NCBI GenBank assembly: GCA_946548715.1
Contig: CAMNPZ010000009.1
Span: 1 to 34,847, forward strand
Length of the DNA stretch: 34,847 nucleotides
Direction of reading: 5' to 3'
Source of the DNA: an uncultured Candidatus Saccharibacteria bacterium
GTDB taxonomy: Bacteria > Patescibacteriota > Saccharimonadia > Saccharimonadales > Saccharimonadaceae
Position numbers and translations under genes: made by a program
Notes under the pieces: generated by a model
Seen by the model: only the letters and a program-made list of their open reading frames with translations
Databases searched by the model: none
Told to the model about the DNA's origin: nothing
Shown here: positions 6,476-26,389 of the stretch, piece after piece
Layout: each line of letters opens with the position of its first letter
Position numbering within the stretch: the stretch's first letter is position 1

Positions 6476-7009
6476 ATGGATCACGGATATAGAATCGGAG
6501 ATAGCAAAGTCCTAGAGAGCCGCGAGACCGTCGACGGCAAGATGATTCGCCGTCGCCGCGAGTCGCCCGATGGCCGCCGCTTCACCACTTACGAGCGCAT
6601 CGAAATGCCACAACTCACCGTCACCAAGCGTAGCGGCAACAAAGAAATCTACGACCGCGACAAGCTTCTGCTCGCCGTCCGTCGCAGTGTCGGCAAATTC
6701 TTCAACTCCGAACTCGAAATCGAAGACGTCGTCAACCGCGCCACCGATATACTATATTCCTACGGCACCGACCAGATCACCAGTCGCCAAATCGGCGAAG
6801 CCGTCCTCGATGTTCTCGCCGCCGTCAACGAAGTCGCCTATGTCCGCTTCGCCTCTGTCTTCCGTGAATTCAAGACTCTTGAGGATTTCGAGACTATCCT
6901 CAAGGAACAGCGGGATCAACATCGGCGGGTGACGCCGCTGAAGGGGGGCCCCCGCGAGAGCCGAGCGGGGGAAGAAGCGGCGGCAGGACCCGCCGAAGGG
7001 AAACGGTAA
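6476..7009 (+). CDS. nrdR: NrdR-like ATP-cone regulator lacking the zinc-ribbon cysteines, with a palindrome-derived C-terminal tail
   Basis: SKVLESRETVDGKMIRRRRESPDGRRFTTYERIE...VTKRSGNKEIYDRDKLLLAVRRSVGK...; no Cys at the expected CxxC positions. Confidence 0.85.
   Translation: MDHGYRIGDSKVLESRETVDGKMIRRRRESPDGRRFTTYERIEMPQLTVTKRSGNKEIYDRDKLLLAVRRSVGKFFNSELEIEDVVNRATDILYSYGTDQITSRQIGEAVLDVLAAVNEVAYVRFASVFREFKTLEDFETILKEQRDQHRRVTPLKGGPRESRAGEEAAAGPAEGKR
6922..6996. repeat. 75-bp palindromic element (family 1, copy A) inside the nrdR coding sequence
   Basis: TCGGCGGGT-GACGCC...GGCGGCAGG-ACCCGCCGA; same ends and length as 26293-26367. Confidence 0.85.
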
Positions 7010-16447: not shown

Positions 16448-16780
16448 ATGCAAGATTATCTTCTTGATCGAGAAACTCTGGCCCAGTTTATCGACGAGCT
16501 TATGAAAAAGCGACCAATTCCGGTCGACAATGCTACAGAAATCAATAACTTTAGGGAAGAACAAATGAAAGCCCTAGACGACCATATCTCTGATGCCATC
16601 TTCGGCGGTATGAGCGATGCGCAGCTATCCAGTCTAAACCAACTGCTTGACCAAGAGAAAGATAATCCAGATGTTTTTCGAAACTTCTTCAAGGCGCAAA
16701 ACATCGACATCGACGGGATAGTCGCCGATGCATTTAATTCGTTTAGTACAAATTATTTAACAGGAGGTCACAATGGCTAA
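16448..16780 (+). CDS. Hypothetical 110-aa acidic protein
   Basis: AGGA-like SD; overlaps the next ATG by 8 nt. Confidence 0.65.
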   Translation: MQDYLLDRETLAQFIDELMKKRPIPVDNATEINNFREEQMKALDDHISDAIFGGMSDAQLSSLNQLLDQEKDNPDVFRNFFKAQNIDIDGIVADAFNSFSTNYLTGGHNG

Positions 16781-18620
16781 ATCACCCGATTCATTACCCG
16801 GAAGTAATCCTGAAACCGGACGGCAAAGAGATGATCATCGTAAAATTGGCGGCAAAGTCATAGCGGCCGCCAAAGCCGAAGGAAAAACACCTGAAGCTCC
16901 AGGCAAAACAGCTAGAGAGATTTTCGACCAAATGACTCCAGGTTCAGATGCAGACGAAGCAATTCGGCGAGCTGAGGAGGCCGAGCAAGCGGCACTCCGA
17001 GGGCAAGCAGCTAGAGCGATTTTCGACCAAATGACTCCAGGCCCAGATGCAGACGAAGCGATTCGGCGAGCTGAGGAGGCCGAACAAGCGGCACTCCGAG
17101 GGCAAAAAGCAACACCGAATGCAGAACGAGGTAAAACTCCCGCCGAAACAACCAAAGAAAAAGCCAAAACCAACTCTGCCTTTAAAACAGCAGTCCGTGG
17201 GTTAATAGCTGGCGGAGTAGCCACACTCGCCGCACTTGGTATATTTGGCGCCTATGAGTCTAATAGGAGATTAAACCCAACGCAACCACAGGCAACTGAG
17301 GCAGAAGCTGTTCCTGGCGGCTCATCGGAGGATGACGCTGGTGCCACCGCGGAAGCAGAAAACCAGTCTAGCTTCGAAAGTCTTAATGCTACGCTTAACC
17401 ATTCATTTGAGCAAGATGACAATTTAGGTTGTTATGAAGATGCTAACAAAGTCGACCCAGCCTCAATCGGTAATCCTAGAGCGATAGCCGAAGAACTAGG
17501 CTTAGATTTCGACAATCTTCCTGCCGACCAACGTGGGAAGATTAGTGAATATATCGCTCGTTCGATGAAATACCCAGCAGCTGCGGAAGCTATTACTCAT
17601 GGCTACCCTGGATTCGAGGGGCTAAGCCAACAAGAAGCCGAAGATAGAATTGCTAGCATGTCTCCTGAAGAAAAAGCTAATTTTGACGCATTCCTCGTGA
17701 ACGAATATGCAAATTCTACATATACCTACATGGATGGTAACGGAACAATGGTAAATCATGGTGTCGTAGGCGAACGGGGTGATAGGCATAGCACATCGCG
17801 AGAAGCAGACATGACTGGAAAGAGAATCCTGGTCCGTGAAACAACCCAGCAAGGCGGAGCCAAAGTTACAGATTATATTAAAGATGATTGTAATAACTGG
17901 TTATACACAATCGTCATACGTCCAGATGGACAAACTACCGTTATTACGCCTCCCCCTGCTCCAACTCCAAGCAATCCTAGTAATCCCGATAATCCAAGCA
18001 ATCCCAGCAATCCCGATAATCCCAGCAATCCCGATAATCCCAGCAATCCCGATAATCCCAGCAATCCCGACAAGCCCGATAAACCAGACCAGCCCGCACA
18101 TCCTCCGAAAAATAAAGAAGCCGAAAGGCGGAATGCTGGCGAGCATGTTACTCCAATATCGGTTGATCCAAACGCTGCCAATTCCGAACAGGCTCACGAA
18201 GCGCAGGAAAAAGCCAATCGTGAATCCGTAGACGCTCAAGCCGAAGCTAAACGACAGGCTGCAGCCGAAGCAGAGCGCCAAGCCGCCGCTCAAGCCGAAG
18301 CGGAGCGTCAAGCTGCCGCCGAAGCTGAACAACGTCGTCAGCAAGCCGAAGCAGAGCGCCAAGCCGCCGCTCAAGCCGAAGCAGAGCGCCAAGCCGAAGC
18401 GGAACGTCAAGCCGAAGCTGCACGACAAGCCGCAGAACAAGCTGCCGCCGAAGCCGCACGTCAAGCCGCCGAAGAAGCTCAGCGTCAAGCCGCCGCCGAC
18501 GAAGCTGCAAGGCGGGCACAAGCCGAAGCCGACGCCGCTGCAGCCGCCGCCGCTGAGACTGCCCCGGCCGGCGCAACCGCCGATGACTTTGCCGCTGCAG
18601 CTGATGAAGAAGGTTTTTAA
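16773..18620 (+). CDS. Membrane-anchored low-complexity protein: duplicated 33-aa repeat, one TM, (SNPDNP)n linker, A/E/R/Q-rich tail
   Basis: Repeats 'AREIFDQMTPGSDADEAIRRAEEAEQAALRGQ' x2; TM 'GLIAGGVATLAALGIFGAY'; TolA-like AEAERQAAAQ. Confidence 0.8.
   Translation: MAKSPDSLPGSNPETGRQRDDHRKIGGKVIAAAKAEGKTPEAPGKTAREIFDQMTPGSDADEAIRRAEEAEQAALRGQAARAIFDQMTPGPDADEAIRRAEEAEQAALRGQKATPNAERGKTPAETTKEKAKTNSAFKTAVRGLIAGGVATLAALGIFGAYESNRRLNPTQPQATEAEAVPGGSSEDDAGATAEAENQSSFESLNATLNHSFEQDDNLGCYEDANKVDPASIGNPRAIAEELGLDFDNLPADQRGKISEYIARSMKYPAAAEAITHGYPGFEGLSQQEAEDRIASMSPEEKANFDAFLVNEYANSTYTYMDGNGTMVNHGVVGERGDRHSTSREADMTGKRILVRETTQQGGAKVTDYIKDDCNNWLYTIVIRPDGQTTVITPPPAPTPSNPSNPDNPSNPSNPDNPSNPDNPSNPDNPSNPDKPDKPDQPAHPPKNKEAERRNAGEHVTPISVDPNAANSEQAHEAQEKANRESVDAQAEAKRQAAAEAERQAAAQAEAERQAAAEAEQRRQQAEAERQAAAQAEAERQAEAERQAEAARQAAEQAAAEAARQAAEEAQRQAAADEAARRAQAEADAAAAAAAETAPAGATADDFAAAADEEGF
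16911..17108 (+). repeat. Two tandem 99-bp repeats
   Basis: Copies 16911-17009 and 17010-17108, nearly identical at DNA level. Confidence 0.9.
17970..18081 (+). repeat. 18-bp tandem repeats AGCAATCCCGATAATCCC encoding SNPDNP
   Basis: Direct reading; several near-identical units. Confidence 0.9.
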
Positions 18621-20251: not shown

Positions 20252-20560
20252 ATGAAAAAAGCAGTCATTCTGGTTGGCGGGAAACAATATCTCGTCGCAG
20301 AGAAAGAGACCCTACGGGTGGACCTCCTCCCGGCAGGCACCAAAGAGCTCGAACTTGACGCTTTACTTGTTATCGATGGCGACAAAACCACCGTCGGCAC
20401 ACCTATAGTAAAGGGCGTAAAAGTTTCAGCGAAAGTAGTAACGCCCGAAGTAAAGGGTGATAAAATTCGCGTTATTCGCTACAAAGCCAAGAAGCGCGTC
20501 CACAAAGAAACTGGCCACCGCCAGAAATACACCGAACTCGAAATCACCAAAATCGGTTAA
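20252..20560 (+). CDS. rplU: Ribosomal protein bL21
   Basis: 'AVILVGGKQYLV...GDKIRVIRYKAKKRVHKETGHRQKYTELEI'. Confidence 0.95.
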   Translation: MKKAVILVGGKQYLVAEKETLRVDLLPAGTKELELDALLVIDGDKTTVGTPIVKGVKVSAKVVTPEVKGDKIRVIRYKAKKRVHKETGHRQKYTELEITKIG

Positions 20561-20769
20561 AAAAGAAAATAAACTTGGGTGGTTGCAACCTGTTTTTCTG
20601 GCAGCATAAAATGATTTGAAATTTTAACACGTATATTCCTGCCGGCGCCGAGAAAGTTGCCCTTTAGGGCAATCTTTCCCGGACGCCCAGCGTATGACGT
20701 GCTTAAAATTTCAAGTCCCGCTGCCAGAAAAAATAGGTTCAACCAGGACCCAATTTTATTTTCTTTTTT
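20559..20769. repeat. 211-bp long inverted repeat between rplU and parA
   Basis: AAAAAAGAAAATAAACTTGGGT..GGTTGCAACCTGTTTTTCTGGCAGC versus reverse complement of GCTGCCAGAAAAAATAGGTTCAACCAGGACCCAATTTTATTTTCTTTTTT. Confidence 0.9.
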
Positions 20770-20781
20770 GCCAATTTTTGT

Positions 20782-20799: not shown

Positions 20800-21567
20800 A
20801 TGAGTGCGAAGGTAATCTGTGTTACGAATCAGAAAGGCGGCGTAGGCAAGACCACTACGGCAGTCAATCTCTGCTATTATCTTGCAAAAGACAAGTTCAA
20901 AACGTTACTAATCGATTTCGATCCTCAAGGCAACGCCACCTCCGGTCTCAATATTGACAAAACTACCTTGAAAGCCACTATGACCGATGTCATCCTGGGC
21001 CAAGCCGAACTATCCCAGGTCATCACTCCTACGAAATATAAGCGTTACGATATCGCTCCCACCACTCCTGAACTCGCCAATGCCGAAGTTGAAATCACCT
21101 CTGAGCAGAAACGGTTCACGCGTCTTCGGGATGCCGTGCGCACCGTGGCAAACAACTATGACTATATCATCATTGATTTACCGCCATCTCTCAGTCTTCT
21201 CACCGTTAACGGCATGATTGCTAGCAATTATGTTCTTCTCCCAGTCCAAACCGAATTCTACGCCCTAGAAGGCGTCGCACAACTCCTCGAATCCATGAAG
21301 CTTGTCATGAAGCAGGCCAATCCCGGCCTCAGATTACTCGGCGTTCTTGCTACCATGTATGACAAGCGCACCAGCCTATCCGTTCAGGTTTATAACGAAA
21401 TCAAGAAATACTTCAAGCAACTTGCATTTGAAACCACTATTCCGCGCAATGTTCGCGTCGCCGAAGCTCCGTCTCACGGCGTCCCTGTCGGTGCATACGA
21501 TAAATTTAGTAAAGGTGCCAAGGCTTACAAAGCCTTCACCAAAGAATTAGAGGAGAGAACCAAATGA
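20800..21567 (+). CDS. parA: ParA/Soj-family partition ATPase
   Basis: 'VICVTNQKGGVGKTTTAVNLCYYLA', 'LLIDFDPQGNATSGL'. Confidence 0.97.
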   Translation: MSAKVICVTNQKGGVGKTTTAVNLCYYLAKDKFKTLLIDFDPQGNATSGLNIDKTTLKATMTDVILGQAELSQVITPTKYKRYDIAPTTPELANAEVEITSEQKRFTRLRDAVRTVANNYDYIIIDLPPSLSLLTVNGMIASNYVLLPVQTEFYALEGVAQLLESMKLVMKQANPGLRLLGVLATMYDKRTSLSVQVYNEIKKYFKQLAFETTIPRNVRVAEAPSHGVPVGAYDKFSKGAKAYKAFTKELEERTK

Positions 21568-22415
21568 GTAAAGGCCTAGGTCGCGGTTTTGAAAGCCTCA
21601 TTCCTACCGACCTCGTCGATGAGGAATTTGACTTAACCGCCAGCGAAGACAAGAGTTCTAGCGAACTCAAACAAATCAAACTTACCGACATCATCCGTGA
21701 CGAAGAACAGCCGCGCCGTGATTTTAGCGAAGAAGCCATCGAAGCTCTCGCTGCTTCCATTAAAGAGCACGGCGTCTTGCAACCCATCGTTGTCACCAAA
21801 GAAGACGGCAAATACAAAATCGTCGCCGGCGAGCGCCGTTGGCGCGCCAGCAAAATTGCCGGCCTCGACAAAATCCCCGCCATCGTCCGCACCCTCGATT
21901 CGCAGAATCGCCTCGAACTCTCCATCATCGAGAATGCCCAAAGGGAAGACCTCAACGCCATCGAGCTCGCCACTGCCTACGCTAAGCTCAAGAACCAATT
22001 CAATCTCACTGCTGAAGAAATCGGCGTCAAAGTCGGCAAATCCGAACAAAGCGTCAACAACACCATGCGTCTCCTCACCCTCCCCGAAAAGGTCAAAAAA
22101 ACCATGGTCAAAGAACATCTCACCGAAGGCGTCATGCGGCCATTAGTCTCGCGTGACGAGAAGACAATTAATAAAGTTCTCCCCAAAATCATCGAAGAAG
22201 GTTGGACTGCCCGCAAGGTGGAACGCTATTTTGCCATGAACAAACCCAAATCCAGTACCGCCGCCGTCAAGTCCATCATGCAGAAAAAAGACGAAGATGC
22301 TCTCTCAGCCAAATACGACGCCACTGCCCGTATCAACGCCCAATCCCTCACCTTCCGTTGCAAATCCGAAACCGCTTTGAAAGAACTCGTCAATCGCCTA
22401 AAACGAATAGCCTAG
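21564..22415 (+). CDS. parB: ParB/Spo0J-family partition protein
   Basis: 'KGLGRGFESLIP', 'REDLNAIELATAYAKL', HTH region; 4-nt ATGA overlap with parA. Confidence 0.97.
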   Translation: MSKGLGRGFESLIPTDLVDEEFDLTASEDKSSSELKQIKLTDIIRDEEQPRRDFSEEAIEALAASIKEHGVLQPIVVTKEDGKYKIVAGERRWRASKIAGLDKIPAIVRTLDSQNRLELSIIENAQREDLNAIELATAYAKLKNQFNLTAEEIGVKVGKSEQSVNNTMRLLTLPEKVKKTMVKEHLTEGVMRPLVSRDEKTINKVLPKIIEEGWTARKVERYFAMNKPKSSTAAVKSIMQKKDEDALSAKYDATARINAQSLTFRCKSETALKELVNRLKRIA

Positions 22416-22608
22416 CGAGAGTATTATTTGGCAGCATAATGAGATTTAGACCAGATTTCTAAATTGTAAGTTTTGCAACTCAGCAATGAAAAAATCTCCC
22501 CCAGCCCGAAGGGCGAATAAGGAGATTTTTTCTTGCCCTGTGTTGCAAGTCTTACAATTTAGAAGTCCAAGCTGCCAAATAATACTCTCGCTAGGCTATT
22601 CGTTTTAG
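22398..22608. repeat. 211-bp inverted repeat with perfect 38-bp arms, left arm containing the last codons and stop of parB
   Basis: 22398-22435 is the exact reverse complement of 22571-22608; inner arms TTCTAAATTGTAAG/CTTACAATTTAGAA, TTGCAAC/GTTGCAA, AAAAAATCTCC/GGAGATTTTTT. Confidence 0.97.
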
Positions 22609-25669: not shown

Positions 25670-26389
25670 CTAGTTTGCGAAATAAAGCGCAAACCCTCTA
25701 GTTTTATATAAAGCGAAGTTCCTTTTCTTGGCGTATTCCGCGATTTGTTCGTGTTGGCACGGGTCCGCTTCTAGTATGAGATGCCGAATGCTTCGTTCTG
25801 CCACCTGGTCAATCAGCCGCTTGATTAACGCCAAGCCCCCATCTTCAGCATACAACGCCAAACGCGGTTCTTTCGCTAAGGCCTCCTTGTCGAGCCACTC
25901 CCAGTTTTCATCCACATAGGGCAAATTCGCCACCACGATATCTGGCTGTGCATTTATTCCATCCATCAAATCCGCCCGTACGAACTCTACATCAGCACTC
26001 AGCCTCTTGGCATTCTCACATGCTACCGCCAGCGCTTCTTCGGAAACGTCACTCGCGATTACTCTCGCCTCTGGCAGTTCTAATTTCAAAGTCACCGCGA
26101 TACACCCCGACCCTGTCCCTACATCCAGAATCGTCAAATCCTGCGGCAACACTGCCGCGCTCGGCTTCACCCCCGGCAAATACGGTTTACCCACCAAGTT
26201 CAGCATCATATCAATCATCTGCTCCGTCTCCGGGCGGGGGATTAGTACATCAGGATTAACAACAAACTCTCTACCATAAAAGTCAATAAACCGGGCGGGT
26301 GACGCCATTTTGGGGACCCCATTCGAGCTTGACGAGAATGGGGAAAAAGTGGCGGCAGGACCCGCCCCATCATTATAGACTTCTTTCAT
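25670..26389 (-). CDS. prmC: PrmC-like release-factor glutamine methyltransferase, N-terminal domain missing/replaced
   Basis: '[24 protein letters not shown]', '[15 protein letters not shown]', '[10 protein letters not shown]' (NPPY-type). Confidence 0.9.
26293..26367. repeat. 75-bp palindromic element (family 1, copy B) inside the prmC coding sequence
   Basis: GGGCGGGT-GACGCC...GGCGGCAGG-ACCCGCCC. Confidence 0.85.

Follow-up and report, generated by a model that had tools for sequence, protein, structure and literature searches.

We report that two imperfect palindromes in protein-coding genes of a Candidatus Saccharibacteria genome, one in nrdR (copy A) and one in the opposite orientation in prmC (copy B), belong to a single family. 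They probably represent a new group of non-autonomous hairpin elements that, in the manner of Rickettsia palindromic elements (RPEs), are translated with their host genes, tolerated in protein loops and mobilised in trans. Both copies lie in the window studied here, a stretch of 34,847 nucleotides (contig CAMNPZ010000009.1 of assembly GCA_946548715.1), and their features are collected in Table 1.

Exact matches to the 13-mer GGCGGGTGACGCC occur at copies A and B only in the 781,578-bp genome, so that the shared ends described in an earlier note on this DNA are not a matter of chance. The common hairpin layout described there was borne out as well, both copies folding better than 200 of 200 dinucleotide shuffles (z = -4.5 for copy A and -5.4 for copy B). 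A third match to the 13-mer (C10, one mismatch) is a chance occurrence within a gene where there is no element. The length of 75 bp first given for each copy holds for the full spans, which count paired flanking bases (two per side in nrdR, one per side in prmC), but not for the unit from GGCGGG to CCCGCC, which is 71 nt long in copy A and 73 nt in copy B. As had been proposed, the nrdR copy supplies an extra C-terminal tail, its ORF ending with RRVTPLKGGPRESRAGEEAAAGPAEGKR, and the prmC copy is read on the opposite strand as 25 residues near the N-terminus. The comparison of orthologues suggested at the time found neither insert in relatives: NrdR in several of them ends with KEQKGKK or KEQKGKR and a stop, or very nearly so, without the tail, GKR and the stop resuming after the insert in the window protein, and PrmC starts without the 25 residues.

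Table 1. Positions in the window of the two palindromic copies, their parts and their host genes.
Feature	Position	Strand	Score or basis
Copy A, palindromic element at the 3' end of nrdR, sense	6922..6996	+	model R1 64.3 bits, E 3e-10
Copy A, core stem-to-stem unit, 71 nt	6924-6994	+	
Copy A, outer stem, left arm GGCGGGT	6924..6930	+	
Copy A, variable apical hairpin CCCCCGC...GCGGGGG	6949..6971	+	
Copy A, conserved AGG bulge, right arm	6985..6987	+	
Copy A, outer stem, right arm ACCCGCC	6988..6994	+	
Copy B, of the same family as copy A, antisense, close to the 5' end of prmC	26293..26367	+	R1 82.6 bits, E 7e-14
Copy B, core unit, 73 nt	26294-26366	+	
Copy B, conserved AGG bulge	26357..26359	+	
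nrdR host gene; KEQ-RDQHR[element]EGKR-stop here vs orthologue ends KEQKGK[KR]-stop	6476..7009	+	orthologue comparison
prmC host gene; 25-residue insert before DFYGR, without counterpart in orthologues	25670..26389	-	orthologue comparison

Searches with a covariance model (R1) of the window's own genome, of same-genus genomes and of wider samples gave the extent of the family. The window's own genome holds five copies, among them one in frame inside a PBP2-like gene (C5), one just ahead of, or at, the start of pgsA (C13) and one outside long ORFs (C12). In 60 same-genus genomes an exact pattern detected five more copies, no two of them in the same gene. R1 matched in 88 of 174 same-genus genomes, with a maximum of 23 copies per genome; the suggestion that the two palindromes were members of a repeated element is thereby supported by further genomic copies. 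The carriers seem to be Candidatus Saccharibacteria of animal guts. Strong R1 matches were present in only 8 of 384 genomes of a phylum-wide sample, and the pattern scan together with the model also detected related copies in Omnitrophota, Deltaproteobacteria, Nitrospirae, Kerfeldbacteria, an Actinobacteria MAG and other groups. Several assemblies from outside the Saccharibacteria hold two or more copies, and the copies in other phyla are mostly outside conserved genes. Pattern matches in Streptomyces, Gemmobacter and Tardiphaga were low-scoring, GC-rich and probably due to chance. The pattern had no match among 2.9 million viral contigs, and a phage origin is thus unsupported. In a Lachnospiraceae MAG (L156), one open frame of 536 codons contains two copies with the same flanks (2030-2105 and 2777-2852) at a distance of 747 bp; the pair has a low model score and may reflect tandem repetition of a gene segment, or chance.

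Across the family the element is a unit of 70-85 bp forming one long hairpin, in which an outer stem (NNCGGGT/ACCCGNN) is followed by a conserved AGG bulge, an A.G mismatch, a second stem and an apical hairpin. The second stem shows many compensatory changes, with G-rich and A-rich inner strands, and the apical hairpin differs between genomes and is often common to the copies within one genome. Among 110 distinct copies, 95.1% of cells are paired in an alignment that was fitted to the model's own structure and therefore favours pairing, slid controls falling to 42-63%. Changes on both sides of a pair were found in 212 cells, against 52.5 in shuffles (reached in 0 of 500), and changes on one side in only 8, so that G-T pairs are nearly absent, unlike in typical RNA families. 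Such scarcity of intermediates points less to selection on an RNA than to a DNA hairpin under selection, or to repair by which the arms stay complementary. The purine mismatch is flipped from A.G to G.A in 7 of the 110 copies, AGG is retained, and a kink-turn reading of the bulge was dropped because that swap is incompatible with it. Just outside the core, the two flanking positions pair across the hairpin in 86% and 79% of copies, against expectations of 31% and 36%; they form inverted rather than direct dinucleotides, and beyond them complementarity ends abruptly. In another family of the phylum, two loci of one genome (L131 and L141 of G330) have copies of about 130 nt with an extra hairpin nested in the apex (e.g. 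TTTTGCCAAAGGCAAAA), which gives the impression that a second palindrome was inserted there.

In the reading that we prefer, the palindrome would fold into its long hairpin as single-stranded DNA or as a cruciform, and a factor encoded elsewhere would recognise the conserved hairpin base and insert copies at new sites. A tentative refinement is that the hairpins are handled as single-stranded DNA by a trans-acting enzyme of the tyrosine or HUH type, much as REP/RAYT and integron attC sites are, and would thus be hairpin recombination sites and not classical MITEs. Strict Watson-Crick covariation is consistent with this, and so are the form of one long hairpin, bulged, mismatched and variable at its apex, and three loci in other phyla (L193, L226 and L230) whose copies cap a longer inverted repeat in the flanks; yet most carriers lack a RAYT-type Y1 transposase, no constant GTAG or CGTC tag flanks the aligned copies, and there is no attC consensus. 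Y1 transposase, reverse transcriptase and resolvase were examined as possible mobilising genes and rejected, since none of them tracks copy number. The Y1 (IS200-like) transposase PF01797 occurs in 8 of 170 genus genomes and is absent from the window's own; reverse transcriptase and serine resolvase occur in about half of the genomes and are missing from several copy-rich genomes, G004 and G033 among them, the former being 96% complete with 13 element copies.

Integron attC sites are imperfect hairpins in which a bulge close to the base is conserved and the terminal structure varies. Our element shares this layout but is without the attC core sequence and is dispersed singly in genes, not in cassette arrays. 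The likeness to REPs lies in dispersed palindromes that are sometimes coding, intragenic cases of GTAG/CGTC-tagged REPs being known in Opitutus and Rickettsia (PMC3733652), and CGTC REPs too have no dedicated transposase; REPs, however, are 20-40 bp long, carry an unpaired GTAG/CGTC tag and often form dimers, whereas the element is one 70-85 bp hairpin, lacks a conserved tag and is mostly inside genes. Intragenic MITEs such as ERIC and Correia/NEMIS are likewise small and non-autonomous, with terminal inverted repeats and translatable frames (PMC2229807), but here the whole element is one hairpin, with no TA target duplication apparent in the inverted dinucleotides that flank it and no parent transposon found. 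It is possible, if speculative, that we are dealing with an undescribed class of hairpin mobile DNA spanning several phyla, whose AGG bulge and purine mismatch would be read as folded DNA, which would insert at the centre of short palindromes through a mobilising factor, and which would serve as a recurrent source of peptide loops in the essential proteins of one ultra-reduced lineage, at spots taken in turn by different palindrome families.

The hairpin could also be a structured RNA acting in the transcript, in regulation, stability or processing, that is found in coding regions by happenstance. Such an RNA would leave strong stem covariation and conserved non-paired motifs, and it would suit the many transcripts that carry copies and the mostly extragenic positions in other phyla. 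We nonetheless consider it unlikely, given that almost no G-U occurs among the 8 one-sided and 212 two-sided changes, that the element lies in both orientations to the gene (20 antisense against 38 sense among interior copies in phase 2) and that the host genes are unrelated and have no common position of insertion. No Rfam family matches the element either; the sole hit, a weak one of copy A to Pab91, involves the apical hairpin and is due to chance.

Dispersal as mobile DNA, the preferred reading, is also consistent with the state of individual sites. MurB alignments have the insert in three genomes and not in two, and in TyrRS it is absent from some orthologues. Insertion points differ within one gene (topA, ileS), and copies decay, one having lost its whole apex and another being left-truncated to the right arm alone. 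The close trio G056, G152 and G156 yielded no clean nucleotide-level empty site, the site flanks having diverged too; these sites are old. AlphaFold models of MurB and TyrRS were of low confidence, with too little alignment depth, and the placement of the MurB insert as a low-confidence coil between two strands, predicted from a shallow alignment, is only suggestive.

Some spots are occupied by other palindromes. The tyrS loop carries the studied family in four genomes, unrelated palindromes in three (G000, G005 and G007); in others it is empty. In the window's own genome (G000:C2:60100-61400, L312) the in-frame occupant of this loop is a different and longer palindrome of about 120 bp (GGACGAGCGGAA...TTCCGCTCGTCC), at the same spot where relatives have the studied element, and G005 (L316) and G007 (L317) have two further unrelated families there, also in frame. 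What looks like the G007 type (LGPRPAGP...RIPSS) is found again in queA of G028 (L012), and several protein-coding palindrome families seem to coexist in the genus. The start of prmC holds the studied family in both orientations and another palindrome in G009, and one intergenic site has the studied element in G156 (L047:1493) and, in G152 and G056 (L333, L334), a palindrome unrelated to it, about 160 bp long (CATAATTCATC...GATGAATTATG). Either hairpins are readily accepted at such spots or palindromes replace one another. The window has other repeats besides. A perfect 38-bp inverted repeat at 22398-22608, with 135 nt between its arms and a second 30-bp inverted repeat inside, lies at the end of ORF 21564-22415 and, judged by its sequence, looks like another nested palindromic element. 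Nested inverted repeats with arms of 26-33 nt (20548-20780) lie between ORFs 20252-20560 and 20800-21567. ORF 16773-18620 includes two tandem 99-bp copies that are 92% alike (16901-17098), NPSNPD repeats (17946-18098) and Ala/Glu/Arg-rich repeats.

Use of the tyrS loop by the studied family in some genomes and by unrelated palindromes in others might mean that inserts are recruited as helpful adaptive loops rather than tolerated. This is very improbable in our view, because insertion points vary within topA and ileS, many orthologues have no insert and copies decay.

Most sampled copies in the studied genus are deep inside ORFs, and the host genes include tyrS, ileS, topA, murB, pheT, typA, gatA, gatB, cysS, obg, argS and exonuclease I (two loci, L077 and L027, were at first taken for LepA and corrected to TypA). 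Where both flanks had 80 or more open codons on one strand, 61 of 61 copies strictly inside one ORF kept the frame without a stop, in a sample of best-scoring copies that includes related copies of one site and is therefore not fully independent; a third at most would be expected if frame were irrelevant. The only three exceptions, including the nrdR copy of the window, are gene ends beside the start of the next gene. Net length relative to element-free orthologues was a multiple of three in 85 of 99 comparisons. This frame rule strongly implies that the element is translated with the host protein. In a census of 67 interior copies at a 60-codon threshold, 58 were in phase 2 (38 sense, 20 antisense), 8 in sense phase 1 and one in antisense phase 1, and the phase 2 peptides are bland and rich in Gly, Ala, Pro and Ser on either strand (sense AGDAA...GPA, antisense AGPAA...SPA). 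The earlier description of an element that stays open when read from either strand therefore stands in so far as both strands can be translated, but does not extend to every frame, sense phase 0 always running into TGA (CGGGTGAC). A segment that is excised from the RNA like an intron, or bypassed in translation, and so leaves the host protein unaltered, might interrupt conserved essential proteins with a conserved structured core and a variable periphery, but it is hardly credible here, as it need not keep the frame that every interior copy keeps and as there is a preferred phase with antisense copies tolerated too. If the elements are instead translated mobile DNA, as we favour, genic insertions would persist only if their length and phase left the host frame intact and their peptide was a bland linker bearable in a surface loop or at a chain end, and such copies would be translated as part of the protein and later decay by substitution and in-frame deletion.

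RPEs are 105-146 bp long, and according to a review one RPE host protein is made and active (PMC2229807). They (Ogata et al., 2000, 2002; reviewed in PMC2229807, PMC10969869) resemble the present family as short palindromes in frame at N-terminal, internal and C-terminal positions of conserved protein genes, and also outside genes, a lineage having several families unrelated to one another, for which no mobilising enzyme is known, and the host a reduced genome. The RPE-like behaviour first proposed from two copies is thus matched by a dispersed palindromic repeat that is in frame, in either orientation, in unrelated, conserved and essential genes with insert-free orthologues, and that has several unrelated palindrome families beside it. 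The element is set apart from RPEs by its length and description, not by sequence alignment, being shorter (70-85 bp), GC-rich, spread over several phyla and built on its own conserved core GGCGGGTGAC...GGCAGGACCCGCC with the AGG bulge. The comparison is apt in behaviour, while the family itself, judged by these features, is a different one. A literature search on Saccharibacteria and Patescibacteria, with most subscription journals outside its scope, returned no description of such a family, in line with the earlier statement that none was known for the lineage.

In summary, protein-coding palindromes had been called a feature of Rickettsia and its kin, and the Saccharibacteria family is independent of these and abundant, with 88 carrier genomes, so that the process recurs in reduced, host-dependent bacteria. 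Its many sites, both orientations, empty orthologues and decaying copies make two questions testable, the movement of such palindromes and the frequency with which essential enzymes gain peptides from selfish DNA. Our data also call for caution in the annotation of Saccharibacteria proteins, whose in-frame extra segments may be inserted DNA and not conserved domains.
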